Shown here one piece after another: positions 2,509-7,906 of a stretch of DNA of 10,768 nt. The stretch is taken from NCBI GenBank assembly GCA_946481495.1, contig CAMLNW010000080.1, forward strand, positions 1 through 10,768. Reading direction: 5' to 3'. A program made the translations under genes and the position numbers. Position 1 is the first letter of the stretch; the number at the start of each line of letters is the position of its first letter. This DNA is from an uncultured Actinomycetes bacterium (GTDB lineage Bacteria; Actinomycetota; Thermoleophilia; Solirubrobacterales; Thermoleophilaceae). The notes under the pieces were generated by a model. It had not been told where the DNA came from and ran no database searches. It saw nothing but the letters and a program-made list of their open reading frames with translations.

Positions 2509-3169
<661 letters not shown>

Positions 3170-3173
<4 letters not shown>

Positions 3174-5410
3174 GCGCCGAAGCGACGTCGCCGGACCTGC
3201 GCGAGGAGGCCCGCGCGCTTGGGCTGACGGACTCCGAGTACGACCTGATCGGGCAGAAGCTCGGCCGGCCGCCGAACGGCCTGGAGCTCGCGGTCTTCTC
3301 GCTGATGTGGTCGGAGCACTGCGCCTACAAGCACTCGAAGAAGCTGCTGCGGCGGCTTCCGGTCGAGGGGCCGCACCTGCTGATGGGGCCGGGCGAGAAC
3401 GCCGGCGCGGTCGACGTGGGCGACGGGCTGGCGATCGCGTTCAAGGTCGAGTCGCACAACCACCCGAGCGCGGTCGAGCCGTTCCAGGGGGCGGCCACCG
3501 GGGTCGGCGGGATTATGCGCGACATCTTTGCGGTGGGGGCGCGGCCGATCGCGGTGCTCGACTCGCTGCGCTTCGGCGAGCTGGATTCGTCGCGGTCGCG
3601 TTACCTGCTCGACGGCGCGGTGTCGGGGATCGGCCACTACGGCAACTCGATCGGCGTCGCGACCGTCGGCGGCGAGGTCTACTTCGAGGGGCCGTACGAG
3701 CAGAACTGCCTCGTCAACGCGATGTGCCTCGGGATCGCACCGCAGGAGCGGCTGACGCGCAGCGCCGCCGCGGGGCTTGGGAACCATCTCGTGCTGATGG
3801 GCGCGCGCACCGGCCGCGACGGAATCGGCGGCGCATCGGTGCTGGCGAGCGCGGAGCTCGACACCGACGATGCCGACAAGCGGCCGACCGTCCAGATCGG
3901 CGACCCGTTCGAGGAGAAGAAGGTGATGGAGGCCTGCCTCGAGCTACTCGACCGCGAGCTGCTGGCGTCGCTGCAGGATCTCGGAGCTGCCGGTCTCTCG
4001 TCGTCGTCCTCGGAGATGGCGTCCGGTGGCAAGGTCGGGCTCGACATCGACGTCGCCAAGGTGCCGCTGCGCGAGGCCGACATGGAGCCGTTCGAGATCA
4101 TGGTCTCGGAGTCGCAGGAGCGCATGCTCGCCGTCGTCGAGCCGGAGCGGCTGGCCGAGGTCGAGGCGGTCTGCGAGCGCTGGGAGGTCCGCTGCACGGT
4201 GATCGGCTCGGTCACCGACACCCGCCACCTGCGCGTCTTCTCCGGCGACGAGCTGGTCGGCGACATGCCGGTCGAGGCGCTCGTCGACGACTGCCCGCTC
4301 TACGACCTCGCGCCCGAGCAGCCGGCCGAGCAGATCTATCCGGCACCGAAGCAGACGCTGGAGCCGAGCGAGGACCTCGCGGCGAATCTGCTCGCGCTGC
4401 TCGGCTCGTCGAACATCGCCTCGCGCCGGCCGCTATTCGAGCAGTACGACTGCATGGTCCAGTCGCGGACCGTGCGCCGTCCCGAGGTCGCCGACGCCGC
4501 CGTGCTCCAGCTCGCCCACGACACCGGCGGCGGCTCGACCGCGATCGCCGTCTCGATCGACGGCAACGGCCGCCGCGTCGCCTGCGACCCCTACTGGGGG
4601 ACCGTCGAGGCGGTGCTCGAGTGCGTGTCGAACCTCGCCTGCGTCGGTGCCGAGCCGCTCGGCCTGACCAACTGCCTCAACTTCGGCAACCCCGAGAAGC
4701 CACATATCGCCTGGCAGCTCTCCCAGTCGGTCGATGGGATGACTGCCGCGCTGAACGAACTCGGCGTCCCGGTTGTCGGTGGCAACGTCTCGCTCTACAA
4801 CCAGTCCGGCGACGGTCCGATCTACCCGACCCCGGTCGTTGGCATGGTCGGCGCGATCCCCGACGCTGAGCGCGCCGCCGCGATCGGCATCGGCTTCCGC
4901 GAGGAGGGCCACGTGATCGCGATGTGCGGCACGCCGCAGCCCTCGCTAGCCGGCTCCGAGCTCGCCAAGCTGCGCGGCGAGCCACTGCCGACGTCGCTGC
5001 CCCAGGCCGACTTTGCCGCTGTCAAGCAGGCCCAAGACGCCGTCCGCGACGCCGTCCGCGCCGGCGACCTCGCCTCCGCCCACGACATGGCCGAGGGAGG
5101 CTTCCTCGTTGCGATCGCCGAGTGCTGTCTCGCTGGCGGGATCGGAGCAAAGCTCGCCTCGCCTTCCGAGCAAGCCATGCCGGTCGGCTACGCCGACCTC
5201 GAGCCCTACCTCTTCGGCGAGGCCGTCGGCGGCTTCATCGTCTCCGGCACGCGCGAGGCGATCGAGCGTCTGGCCGAGCAAGTCCCGACCGACATCTTTG
5301 GCACCGTCGGTGGCGACACGTTCGAGATCGGCCTTGGTGAACAGCCGGTTCGGGTGCCGCTTAGCTCCTTGCGCGGCGCTCACAGCGCGCTCGCGGCCGC
5401 TTTCTCCTGA
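3170..5410 (+). CDS. purL: FGAM synthase large subunit PurL (small-type)
   Basis: A 746-residue ATP-dependent synthase subunit, the size of Bacillus/Thermotoga-type PurL that works with separate PurS and PurQ. It carries two AIRS-like halves. In the first, MWSEHCAYKHSKK (His50 is the conserved catalytic-region histidine), VESHNHPSAVEPFQGAATG (from residue 94) and LQDLGAAGLSSSSSEMA are visible. The second half has HDTGGGSTAIAV (from His450), NCLNFGNPEKP, VVGGNVSLYNQ and SAHDMAEGGFLVAIAE. ATG 3170 is used because it overlaps the purQ stop by 4 bases (ATGA) and gives the standard N-terminus; an upstream in-frame extension lies inside purQ. Near residue 625 a 12-base tandem duplication repeats the residues DAVR. 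The next gene downstream is not a purine gene, so the operon appears to be interrupted here. Confidence 0.97.
5036..5059 (+). repeat. Two tandem copies of a 12-bp unit within purL
   Basis: GACGCCGTCCGC occurs twice back to back and in frame, encoding DAVRDAVR in a surface-like helix before the SAHDMAEGG motif. It is a short in-frame duplication with no evident effect on the fold. Confidence 0.85.
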
Positions 5411-5467: not shown

Positions 5468-5490
5468 TTTAGCCTTATATTGAGGCTAAA
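5468..5490. promoter_or_regulatory. Perfect 8-bp inverted repeat, candidate operator over the endonuclease promoter
   Basis: TTTAGCCT, a 7-nt spacer TATATTG and AGGCTAAA form a 23-bp palindrome ending 15 bases before the endonuclease ATG. The spacer contains TATATT (5476-5481), a 5-of-6 match to the TATAAT -10 consensus, so a dimeric repressor bound here would cover the promoter. TTGCAT at 5457 is a possible -35 box, but its 13-bp spacing is too short to be convincing. The repeat is AT-rich and not followed by a T run, so it does not look like an intrinsic terminator. No regulator gene is adjacent, so autoregulation or a distant repressor would have to act. Confidence 0.5.
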
Positions 5491-5494
5491 TGCG

Positions 5495-5499
5495 AAGGA
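5495..5499 (+). promoter_or_regulatory. Shine-Dalgarno sequence of the endonuclease gene
   Basis: AAGGA lies 6 nt before ATG 5506 and fixes that start. It is the clearest ribosome-binding site in the window. The other genes start either by overlap with the gene before or without a visible site, so this gene uses a different initiation style from its neighbours. Confidence 0.7.
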
Positions 5500-5505
5500 T
5501 AAATA

Positions 5506-6399
5506 ATGAGCATCGATATCAAGCCGGGCGGCAAGATCCGCCGAGTAGCCCTTCATCAGCGTTATGGCGGACGGCGGCAGGGCGGCATCAGCCCCTCCAA
5601 GCAGAGCCCCAACGTCTTCTTGATTACCGCGCCGGGATTGGGGGAGCAGCATGGCTACCTCTACGACGGTCCTAACGACGATGGCTACTACCACTACACG
5701 GGCGAGGGCCAGTACGGCGATCAGCGCATGGTTCAGGGCAACCGGGCAATTCGCGACCATGCTGGCGAGGGGCGTGAGCTCCACCTGTTTGAGGCTCAGG
5801 GTCCGGAGCTCCGATACATCGGGGAGTTCGCCTACGTTGACGACTATCAGGCAGAGGCTCCTGAGACCAATGGTGGCGAGCGTCGGGCGGTCATCGTCTT
5901 CCGGCTTGCCCAGCAGGCGGGTGTGCCAGCGACCCCGACCAAGTCCCGCCTCGATCGGCTGAGTGGCGAGGCAGTTGTCGAGGTGCCGGTTGAGCAGCTC
6001 ACAACTGAGACCACGTTGATCGACGGCGATCGTGAGCCTTACGAGGCTGAGCGTCGCGAGCAGAAGCTGGTGCGTTCCTTCTTAGCGGCACTTGAGTTGC
6101 GTGGCCACGACGTCTGCCGGTTGCAGCTCCGCCCCTCGGGCGAGGCAGCACCACTGTTCTGCGATCTCTTCGACAAGACAACGAACACCCTGTATGAGGC
6201 CAAGGGGTCCGTCGCTCGTCCGTCGGTTCGGATGGCCTTAGGTCAACTCGCGGACTACTCCCGTTTCATCAAGCCAACTCCGCAAAGGTCGTTGCTTGTA
6301 CCCCAGAAGCCGCGCCCAGACCTGCTTGCGTTGCTAGACGATCAAGGCGTCGCAGCAACCTGGCCGGACTCAGACGGATTCGTCTCGACCAGTGACTAG
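5506..6399 (+). CDS. Predicted type IV-like restriction endonuclease: SRA-like domain plus PD-(D/E)XK nuclease
   Basis: A 297-residue protein with two parts. Residues ~12-133 resemble the SRA-like (YDG) modified-base-binding domain of ScoMcrA-type enzymes: YGGRRQGGIS, the YDG motif at 53-55, and YTGEGQYGDQRMVQGNRAI (64-82), which parallels the GSGG...DQ...N.AL core of SRA domains. A linker (~134-178) leads to residues ~179-290, which fit a PD-(D/E)XK nuclease: a helix with Glu185, Asp220, then Glu231-Ala-Lys233 (D-x10-ExK), and GQLADY (Gln247, Tyr251) resembling the QxxxY motif. The expected role is to recognise and cut DNA with modified cytosines or other modifications, such as phage DNA. 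No methyltransferase, helicase or McrB-like GTPase is adjacent, so it may act alone. It contains TTA codons (Leu193, Leu246) and less biased third positions than the pur genes, suggesting horizontal transfer. The domain calls are from motif reading only; the modification recognised is unknown. Confidence 0.8.
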   Translation: MSIDIKPGGKIRRVALHQRYGGRRQGGISPSKQSPNVFLITAPGLGEQHGYLYDGPNDDGYYHYTGEGQYGDQRMVQGNRAIRDHAGEGRELHLFEAQGPELRYIGEFAYVDDYQAEAPETNGGERRAVIVFRLAQQAGVPATPTKSRLDRLSGEAVVEVPVEQLTTETTLIDGDREPYEAERREQKLVRSFLAALELRGHDVCRLQLRPSGEAAPLFCDLFDKTTNTLYEAKGSVARPSVRMALGQLADYSRFIKPTPQRSLLVPQKPRPDLLALLDDQGVAATWPDSDGFVSTSD

Positions 6400-6469: not shown

Positions 6470-7906
6470 GTGACCTCTCAAACGACGATCCCCGATCGTG
6501 ACGGGCCGCGCGACGAGTGCGGCGTGTTTGGCGTATTCGCTCCCGAATCCGAGGTTGCGCGGCTCGCGTACTTCGGGTTGTTCGCGCTTCAGCACCGGGG
6601 TCAGGAGTCGGCGGGAATCGCAGCCTGCGAAGACGGCCACATCATGACCGTGCGCGATCTGGGCTTGGTGTCGCAGGTCTTCGACGAGCAGAAGCTGAAG
6701 GCGCTGACCGGCGACATGGCGGTCGGGCACGTGCGCTACTCGACGACCGGCTCGTCGGCGTGGGAGAACGCTCAGCCGGTCTACCGCTCCGATCATCGCC
6801 ACCTCGCGCTGGCGCACAACGGCAACCTGATCAACGCCGTCGAGTTGCACGGCGAGCTGCTCGACAAGGGCGTCTCGTTCCGCTCGACTTCGGACTCGGA
6901 GATCATCGCGGCACTGCTGTCGACCCATGAGGCCGACACGATCGAGGAGGCGCTCGCCGAGACGCTGCCGCGCTTGCAGGGGGCGTTCTCGACGGTCGTG
7001 ATGACAACCGACAAGCTCGTCGCCTTCCGCGACGGTGCTGGGTTGCGGCCGCTGTCGCTGGGCAAGATCGGCGAGCGCTGGTGCGTCGCTTCGGAGAGCT
7101 GCGCGTTCGACATCATCGGCGCCGAGCTGGTGCGTGAGGTCGAGCCGGGCGAGATAATCGTGATCTCCGAGGCGGGGATGGAGTCGCGCCAGGCGATCGA
7201 CTCGCCGCGCAAGGCGTTCTGCGTCTTCGAGCACATCTACTTCGCGCGGCCGGACTCGATCCTCGAGGGCAACCGGACCCAGGTCTCGCGGCGCAAGATG
7301 GGCGAGATCCTCTGGCGCGAGTCGCCGGTCGAGGCGGACGTTGTCGTTGCCGTTCCGGACTCCGGCAATCCGGCCGCCGCCGGCTTCTCGAAGGCGTCGG
7401 GGATTCCGCGCGACGAGGGGCTGATCAAGAACCGCTACGTCGCGCGCACCTTCATCCAGCCGGGCCAGGAGCTACGCAAGCATGGCTTGCGGATGAAGTT
7501 CAACCCGCTGCGCGAGGTCGTCGAGGGCAAGCGGCTGGTCGTCGTCGACGACTCGATCGTGCGCGGCAACACGACCCGCCAGATCGTCCAGATGCTGCGC
7601 GACGCGGGTGCGCTCGAGGTCCACATGCGGATCTCGGCGCCGCCGATTCGCTACCCCTGCCACTACGGCGTCGACATGTCGACGACCGACGAGATGGTCG
7701 CCCACGGCCGCAACGTCGAGGAGATCGCCGAGCACCTGGAGTGCGACTCGCTCGCCTACCTCTCGCTCGAGGGCGTTTACGAGGCGATCCGCGGCGAGCG
7801 CGGCACCCACTGCGACGCCTGCTTCTCTGGCGAGTACCCGCTCGACGGCACCGGCGACGCCCAAGGCAAGTACGCCTTCGAGCTGCCCGTCGTCAGCGGC
7901 GGCTGA
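6470..7906 (+). CDS. purF: Amidophosphoribosyltransferase
   Basis: This 478-residue enzyme makes 5-phosphoribosylamine from PRPP and glutamine, the committed step of purine synthesis. The N-terminal Ntn glutaminase domain has RDECGVFGV, with nucleophile Cys17 expected to be exposed by removal of a 16-residue propeptide, then LQHRGQESAGI, VGHVRYSTTG and LAHNGNLIN. The C-terminal phosphoribosyltransferase domain has the PRPP loop VVVDDSIVRGNT (about 357-368). Cys251, Cys397, Cys448 and Cys451 match the four ligands of the [4Fe-4S] cluster in B. subtilis-type PurF. GTG 6470 must be the start: an in-frame TGA at 6458 closes the frame upstream, and the next in-frame GTG lies beyond the nucleophile. 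No ribosome-binding site or good TANNNT box precedes it. purM, a frequent next neighbour, is absent. Confidence 0.97.
   Translation: MTSQTTIPDRDGPRDECGVFGVFAPESEVARLAYFGLFALQHRGQESAGIAACEDGHIMTVRDLGLVSQVFDEQKLKALTGDMAVGHVRYSTTGSSAWENAQPVYRSDHRHLALAHNGNLINAVELHGELLDKGVSFRSTSDSEIIAALLSTHEADTIEEALAETLPRLQGAFSTVVMTTDKLVAFRDGAGLRPLSLGKIGERWCVASESCAFDIIGAELVREVEPGEIIVISEAGMESRQAIDSPRKAFCVFEHIYFARPDSILEGNRTQVSRRKMGEILWRESPVEADVVVAVPDSGNPAAAGFSKASGIPRDEGLIKNRYVARTFIQPGQELRKHGLRMKFNPLREVVEGKRLVVVDDSIVRGNTTRQIVQMLRDAGALEVHMRISAPPIRYPCHYGVDMSTTDEMVAHGRNVEEIAEHLECDSLAYLSLEGVYEAIRGERGTHCDACFSGEYPLDGTGDAQGKYAFELPVVSGG

Follow-up and report, generated by a model that had tools for sequence, protein, structure and literature searches.

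What is a single gene resembling a restriction enzyme doing inside a purine biosynthesis cluster? We asked this of a 10,768-nucleotide stretch of DNA from an uncultured Actinomycetes bacterium (GenBank assembly GCA_946481495.1, contig CAMLNW010000080.1; "the window" below means this whole stretch), in which positions 5506 to 6399 of the forward strand encode a protein of 297 amino acids (aa) that an initial annotation had taken for an SRA-like reader of modified bases joined to a PD-(D/E)XK nuclease. We think it likely, from predicted structure and comparison with relatives, that the product is a stand-alone restriction endonuclease dependent on 5-methylcytosine (5mC), to be classed as type IV, or as type IIM if its cut distance is fixed, and that its gene was acquired between purL and purF. 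Support comes from a depletion of C5-cytosine methyltransferases among genomes carrying relatives, with N6/N4 methyltransferases flat as a control, from SauUSI-like neighbours of some relatives, and from an SRA domain of the ScoMcrA type.

A predicted SRA domain joined to a PD-(D/E)XK nuclease

The open reading frame (ORF) is a real gene, running from an ATG start through 297 codons with a coding-like position-specific GC content of 0.69/0.45/0.73. Structure prediction with a family alignment of 92 sequences, reaching down to 31% identity, gave an SRA fold and a PD-(D/E)XK core at a mean predicted local distance difference test (pLDDT) score of 90.8, replacing an earlier model built from 38 close relatives (pLDDT 79.6). 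Together with profile searches, this model bears out the two domains first proposed: the SRA domain occupies residues 1–144 (5506–5937, forward strand), and the nuclease domain residues 180–297 (6043–6396, forward strand), with an alpha-beta-beta-beta-alpha-beta core modelled at block means of 88–98. The linker between them, residues 145–179 (5938–6042, forward strand), has the lowest model confidence (block means 65–82).

All residues named at the outset are present (YTGEG at 64–68, D72-Q73, G78-N79, D220, E231, K233, Q247 and Y251), and they are kept across the family. On the SRA side, the 92 aligned sequences hold Y51 in 90, D54 in 87 (glutamate in the other 5), Y64 in 91, D72 in 90, Q73 in 91 and N79 in all 92; on the nuclease side, D220 is kept in 89 and E231, K233, Q247 and Y251 in 90 each, with D220, E231 and K233 jointly retained in 88. 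Such near-invariance means that the motif set is not a matter of chance. This residue-by-residue count applies to the aligned sequences and not to loci outside that alignment; searching the 80 loci L001–L080 for the bare pattern EAK plus G, S or A gave no match in 12 of them.

We predict that the flipped base would sit in a pocket formed by Y51 (5656–5658), D54 (5665–5667) and Y64 (5695–5697), all within 5656–5697 of the forward strand, a prediction based on the SRA-core alignment, conservation and the pocket of TagI, in which the flipped base is described as held by Tyr55, Asp58 and Tyr67 (PMC6212794). The same source gives the pocket carboxylate as Asp in UHRF1 and Glu in UHRF2. The TagI alignment begins with TagI residue 54 opposite position 51 of the profile, counted as G50, and the GY-x-D...YTG of SUVH5 aligns with G50-Y51...D54...Y64-T65-G66 of the window protein. 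Where SUVH5 has a long insert between YTG and DQ the window protein has a short loop, so that a finger of the NKR type would not be expected. By its SRA fold and conserved pocket residues, the protein would thus contain a domain that reads a modified base.

The closest SRA by profile and structure comparison is that of ScoMcrA, as the initial annotation had suggested. ScoMcrA's being the closest solved SRA could also mean that phosphorothioate DNA is recognised here, as by ScoMcrA, and such DNA had been listed among the candidate targets. We hold this very improbable: ScoMcrA senses sulfur with a separate sulfur-binding domain (SBD; PMC6224610), whereas the alignment starts in the SRA domain and leaves zero residues to spare for an SBD, and the match being limited to the SRA domain makes a phosphorothioate target unlikely.

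The C-terminal half is predicted to be a nuclease domain with a complete active site, its catalytic motif running over 6163–6258 of the forward strand (D220, 6163–6165; E231-A-K233, 6196–6204; Q247, 6244–6246; Y251, 6256–6258) according to conservation and the predicted core. It resembles Can2, AF1548 and XisH, and Q247-xxx-Y251 is reminiscent of the QxxxY motif of RecB-like nucleases.

From these features we infer a mechanism in which the N-terminal SRA domain would flip 5-methylated cytosine, and probably the 5-hydroxymethylated form too, from the duplex into the Y51/D54/Y64 pocket, and the C-terminal domain, probably as a dimer, would cut nearby DNA without a nucleoside triphosphate (NTP), using D220, E231 and K233 with Q247 and Y251.

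C5 methyltransferases are depleted among carriers in two groups

A 5mC-cutting enzyme should be incompatible with C5-cytosine methyltransferases of its host, and incompatibility of such systems with methyltransferases is described as an established possibility (PMC12707154). We counted C5 methyltransferases as PF00145 and, for control, N6/N4 methyltransferases as PF01555. Carriers, in the two samples compared with non-carriers, were genomes with any match at E<=1e-10, partial and distant matches included. PF00145 was present in 1/48 and 2/30 of the carrier genomes reached through loci, the former count leaving out the genomes of L012 and L021. The first comparison covered 199 Streptomyces genomes (the genus of G674, the genome of locus L005), of which 39 were carriers and 128 held PF00145: the C5 family occurred in 8/39 carriers and 120/160 non-carriers (Fisher p=4.8e-10), and in 2/13 of the genomes with the closest relatives (E below 1e-60; p=3e-5). 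The control family did not differ (14/39 against 70/160, p=0.47). Among 150 genomes of the family of G694 (a Nonomuraea, locus L030), PF00145 was found in 1/16 carriers and 85/134 non-carriers (p=1e-5), and the lone positive carrier has only a 149-aa open frame. Counted by gene context, a C5-positive genome appeared in 3 of the 47 groups with a genome searched, and in 1 of 15 groups holding Streptomycetaceae; these 15 were picked out by hand, two include further families, and the list omits the group of L004 (whose genome, titled Microtetraspora, is in the Streptomyces draw). Differing gene contexts are not proof of separate acquisitions.

C5 methyltransferases are therefore depleted among carriers in two actinobacterial groups, which points to 5mC itself as the main trigger. 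A partner methyltransferase would then not be needed, because the host's DNA is expected to be without the mark. The proposal of a modification-dependent restriction role thereby gains ground, while the idea that hypermodified phage DNA alone is the target loses it. An enzyme of the same kind could still be tuned to hypermodified cytosine of phages (5-hydroxymethylcytosine, 5hmC, or glucosyl-5hmC, g5hmC) or to another base, with little action on 5mC. SRA preferences vary, PvuRts1I being described as dependent on 5hmC or g5hmC (PMC6212794) and ScoMcrA as preferentially cleaving 5hmC DNA (PMC7461809), yet an enzyme insensitive to 5mC would not keep out the C5 methyltransferases that carriers are without, and the pocket residues align with those of SUVH5, a 5mC reader. 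We therefore regard this alternative as unlikely. The 5mC reading is further favoured by ScoMcrA, whose cuts in methylated plasmids are reported to cluster near methylated cytosines (PMC7461809).

The same counts bear on whether the protein is a repair nuclease rather than a restriction enzyme, guided by its SRA domain to damaged or deaminated 5mC sites in the manner of NucS/EndoMS. A repair enzyme of that kind predicts C5 methyltransferases in carriers, the opposite of what we found, and the patchy occurrence of the family (any match in 9/399 genomes of the window's class; 39/199 in Streptomyces) is unlike that of a repair gene, leaving this explanation improbable.

Several observations weigh against 5mC-dependent restriction by this gene. 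Within the window's class PF00145 occurs in 56/309 genomes and depletion is not seen, and at least three of the nine matching genomes hold it (G156, G162 and G202); the matches in those three are distant, HNH-type or confined to the C-terminal domain, and the two class genomes with full-length relatives, G003 and G004, are without PF00145, so that the effect is there neither repeated nor cleanly contradicted. Eight Streptomyces carriers hold a C5 methyltransferase, a short gene fragment in one only (G851). The window's own genome lies outside the methyltransferase samples, and the N6/N4 comparison and the gene contexts are the sole controls for kinship among genomes. Further type IV enzymes, SauUSI-like ones among them, may be present in carriers, so that this gene alone need not account for the depletion. 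Lastly, at least one of D220, E231 and K233 is missing in 4 of the 92 aligned relatives, some of which may thus be inactive. That loss, with the poorly modelled linker, is what could suggest a decayed or regulatory SRA protein without nuclease activity. For the window protein itself this seems highly doubtful, given that it has every active-site residue, that the set is kept in the great majority of relatives, and that its nuclease domain is confidently modelled.

Relatives and their neighbours

Of 4358 candidates in a protein search, 1278 were relatives at E<=0.001, and the 120 of these that were listed measure 291–315 aa and carry the precomputed domain PF26348, which we take to be a ScoMcrA-like SRA domain. 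In a scan of genomes 300 coding stretches were confirmed, of which the best 80 are mostly from Actinomycetota, with some from Pseudomonadota, Myxococcota and Chloroflexota. The family tree requires several changes of phylum; its deep forks are weak, and transfer is not proven by the tree. Plasmids gave matches in 35 of 72,556 records, 8 of which span at least 80% of the protein, and phages in 2 of 50,697 records, both entries of Gordonia phage Sidious; a scan of viral contigs returned three pattern matches, none of them confirmed as a relative.

Existing models cover the family in part. Pfam gave nothing at E<=1 for the window protein; a local Pfam scan of 38 sequences gave four families, each weakly matching one member (SAD_SRA, E 0.0075, among them). 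NCBIfam gave nothing for the window protein and one chance repeat match among the 92 relatives, and PHROGs returned phrog_15103 alone, of unknown function, on the SRA half. The PADLOC model mREase_IV (PDLC03662) matches the window protein at E 0.0056 over residues 13–95 only, and 49 of the 92 relatives at E<=0.001. The window protein is not spanned from end to end by any model of NCBIfam, PADLOC or the local Pfam set. In both VIA match lists one domain can crowd out another, so that families absent there are not excluded. We recognised no study of exactly this family among open-licence titles and the openings of abstracts, which is weak evidence of novelty, and the available part of an article on type IV enzymes of Frankia (PMC6769113) does not tell whether those enzymes belong in this family.

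Gene neighbourhoods, delineated with a simple gene caller of our own and clustering, show that relatives at 82 loci lie among mostly unrelated genes and fall into 50 context groups, with no obligate partner. We scanned 125 immediate neighbours (132 less 7 left out; all of them proteins of 80–900 aa not truncated at the edge of a contig), and the tallies refer to 25 of 70 Pfam families, which include all with at least two members, and to 25 of 95 PADLOC families. The domains found include Prim-Pol (7), integrase (3), resolvase (2) and N6/N4 methyltransferase (2). Longer relatives (~337 aa) in a Streptomyces clade, L052–L078, often have a Prim-Pol-type gene next to them (two such neighbours scanned), a hint that they travel on integrative elements.

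The adjacent partner that recurs across genera is a SauUSI-like gene (1028–1103 aa), which directly adjoins the relative, on the same or opposite strand, in 8 of the 82 loci: five in Streptomyces, two in Nonomuraea and one in Actinomadura (L021, L031, L034, L036, L038, L040, L050 and L066). Three of the eight products were scanned and showed a PLD domain, a ResIII helicase and DUF3427, together with a PADLOC mREase_IV match, and the eight align with the L034 protein over ~1040 residues at 45–89% identity. A ninth member of the cluster, encoded by the third gene upstream at L035, has 25% identity over 394 aligned residues and is left out of this count. These loci would thus hold two type IV enzymes side by side.

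Could the protein instead be the restriction half of a restriction–modification pair, its methyltransferase having been lost or being encoded elsewhere? Methyltransferases do adjoin distant relatives in phage Sidious, in Streptomyces seoulensis (L077) and on plasmid pSITFR-21a. Against this, no methyltransferase is recognised in the window, and N6_N4_Mtase, in 2 of the 125 neighbours, is the sole methyltransferase family in the Pfam tally, a few more being possible among single-member families. The pairs named, moreover, involve relatives at 31–36% identity and enzymes of N6/N4 or weakly adenine-like type, not C5. We accordingly give this pairing little credence and retain the stand-alone 5mC-dependent enzyme. 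What had been described as a compact single-gene system stands as such here, and relatives do occur without a methyltransferase partner; a minority, however, adjoin a SauUSI-like enzyme or, in phage and plasmid, methyltransferases.

Among individual loci, Sidious carries gp63, a relative at 34% identity, followed by two methyltransferases, gp64–65 (L082:5989-8388), a phage-borne version that may be paired. On the Streptomyces plasmid pSITFR-21a (L112:3562-5924) the relative is preceded by a "DNA methylase" that weakly resembles BrxX adenine methyltransferases. In distant relatives a similar SRA type is joined to HNH and, in haloarchaeal plasmids, to a McrB-like AAA protein; one such plasmid (L111:3452-7078) encodes a ~1208-aa protein, this SRA type lying within the N-terminal third and the McrB-like AAA domain after it, followed by a 450-aa gene whose product has no clear solved relative. 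At L045:11113-16649 the relative lies beside a DUF3375 protein followed by ORFs of 246 and 1116 aa, a set reminiscent of the JetABC part of Wadjet. The upstream neighbour at L047 and L049 is Beta_protein (PF14350), and the one at L047 matches PADLOC PD-Lambda-2_C.

Insertion between purL and purF

The gene is flanked by purL (3131–5410, forward strand; NF002290, 881 bits) and purF (6470–7906, forward strand; TIGR01134, 533 bits); by NCBIfam model matches, purC, purQ and purL lie upstream, and purF, a recQ-family helicase gene and purN downstream. Scanning nine window proteins, we recognised no methyltransferase and no defence family above the cut-off, in keeping with the initial annotation of a solo gene in a purine cluster; the RecQ-like protein has a match to DpdF below the cut-off. 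GC content at third codon positions is 0.73 in the inserted gene versus 0.90–0.92 in purC, purL, purF and recQ, and its leader has 49.5% GC, both consistent with a gene acquired from elsewhere.

The purL–purF spacing in the window is 1059 nt, with the gene inside. We located PurL in ten related genomes, nine from the class of G003 and G004 (63–72% identity) and, in addition, G553. Between the aligned ends of PurL and PurF there are 122–166 nt in five of the ten (L101, L107–L110) and 571 nt, 1.2 kb, 3.3 kb and 4.0 kb in L106, L105, L104 and L102; in L103, PurF was not found within 8.6 kb of PurL. Insertion by acquisition is therefore the best reading, and the varied gaps and cargo indicate a site that accepts cargo in several lineages. 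The cargo seen at L102, L104 and L105 comprises a sigma-70-type gene with a SnoaL domain, a GH31 glycosidase and an unrecognised 182-aa protein. We dropped the idea of a defence hotspot in the purL–purF interval, since the other recognised cargo (the sigma-70-type gene and the glycosidase) is not defence-like.

Upstream of the start codon, a ribosome-binding site recognised in the sequence, GAAGGA (5494–5499, forward strand), ends 6 nt 5' of the ATG, and just 5' of it the AT-rich leader contains a perfect 8-bp inverted repeat, TTTAGCCT/AGGCTAAA, with a 7-nt loop (5468–5490, no strand assigned). Arms of 8 bp were reached in 0/300 mononucleotide shuffles, and the repeat is possibly an operator or an RNA hairpin. 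It is not a conserved family element, since arms of at least 8 bp occur 5' of 3 of the 79 relatives tested and have other sequences. At the window's edge, the first ORF (2–1366, open at that edge) encodes a DUF1501 domain at residues 310–411, and its initial ~45 residues resemble the last part of a hexapeptide acyltransferase, which could reflect a gene fusion or a joint made in assembly.

What the family may represent

On a wider view, for which we judge the chances to be about even, the protein belongs to a large unnamed lineage of minimal (~300-aa), partner-free 5mC endonucleases that would form a common type IV barrier in Actinomycetota. These would combine a ScoMcrA-type SRA with a RecB/Can2-like PD-(D/E)XK nuclease, move between phyla and be stacked with SauUSI-like enzymes in some genomes, their 5mC toxicity shaping which C5 methyltransferases hosts keep. 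If so, "hypothetical protein" entries in many soil actinobacteria would become predicted 5mC-dependent restriction enzymes, and this would explain, concretely and in a way open to testing, why methylated plasmids transform these hosts poorly and why C5 methyltransferases are scarce in them. An NTP-free nuclease of 297 aa that depends on 5mC would, in addition, make a small reagent for methylation mapping. Comparing the co-occurrence of C5 and N6/N4 methyltransferases offers a cheap guess at the target base of other uncharacterised modification-dependent enzymes.

Comparison with known systems

ScoMcrA of Streptomyces coelicolor (PDB 5zmm/5zmn), a type IV enzyme of SBD-SRA-HNH order, shares its SRA type with the window protein, which is without the sulfur-binding domain and has a PD-(D/E)XK nuclease in place of HNH. 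TagI and ScoA3IV are SRA-HNH enzymes and differ likewise in their nuclease. SauUSI, with PLD, helicase and SRA parts and DUF3427, also reads 5mC and 5hmC through an SRA domain (PMC7913695) and differs in being ATP-dependent (PMC7913695, PMC3874153), in its PLD nuclease and in its size of ~950–1060 aa. PvuRts1I and AbaSI combine an SRA domain with PD-(D/E)XK as the window protein does; in them the nuclease comes first and activity depends on 5hmC or g5hmC (PMC6212794).

Nearest in plan is the MspJI family (MspJI, LpnPI, AspBHI, FspEI), a member of which (4f0p) is the best whole-chain Foldseek match (E 1.7e-8). MspJI itself is not listed in phmmer or hmmsearch comparisons at E<=1 or E<=10, an absence from a list that is not proof of non-homology. 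The domain order, first thought unusual, proves to be that of MspJI, SRA then PD-(D/E)XK (PMC6212794, PMC12707154). Members of that family are ~450 aa long against 297 here, and their active site is given as PD-QxK (PMC12707154) where the window protein has E231-A-K233; across the 92 aligned sequences position 231 is E in 90, D in 2 and Q in none. With the layout already known, what appears to be new is the variant: the MspJI plan, as judged from sequence and model, carrying a ScoMcrA-type reader and an EAK nuclease.
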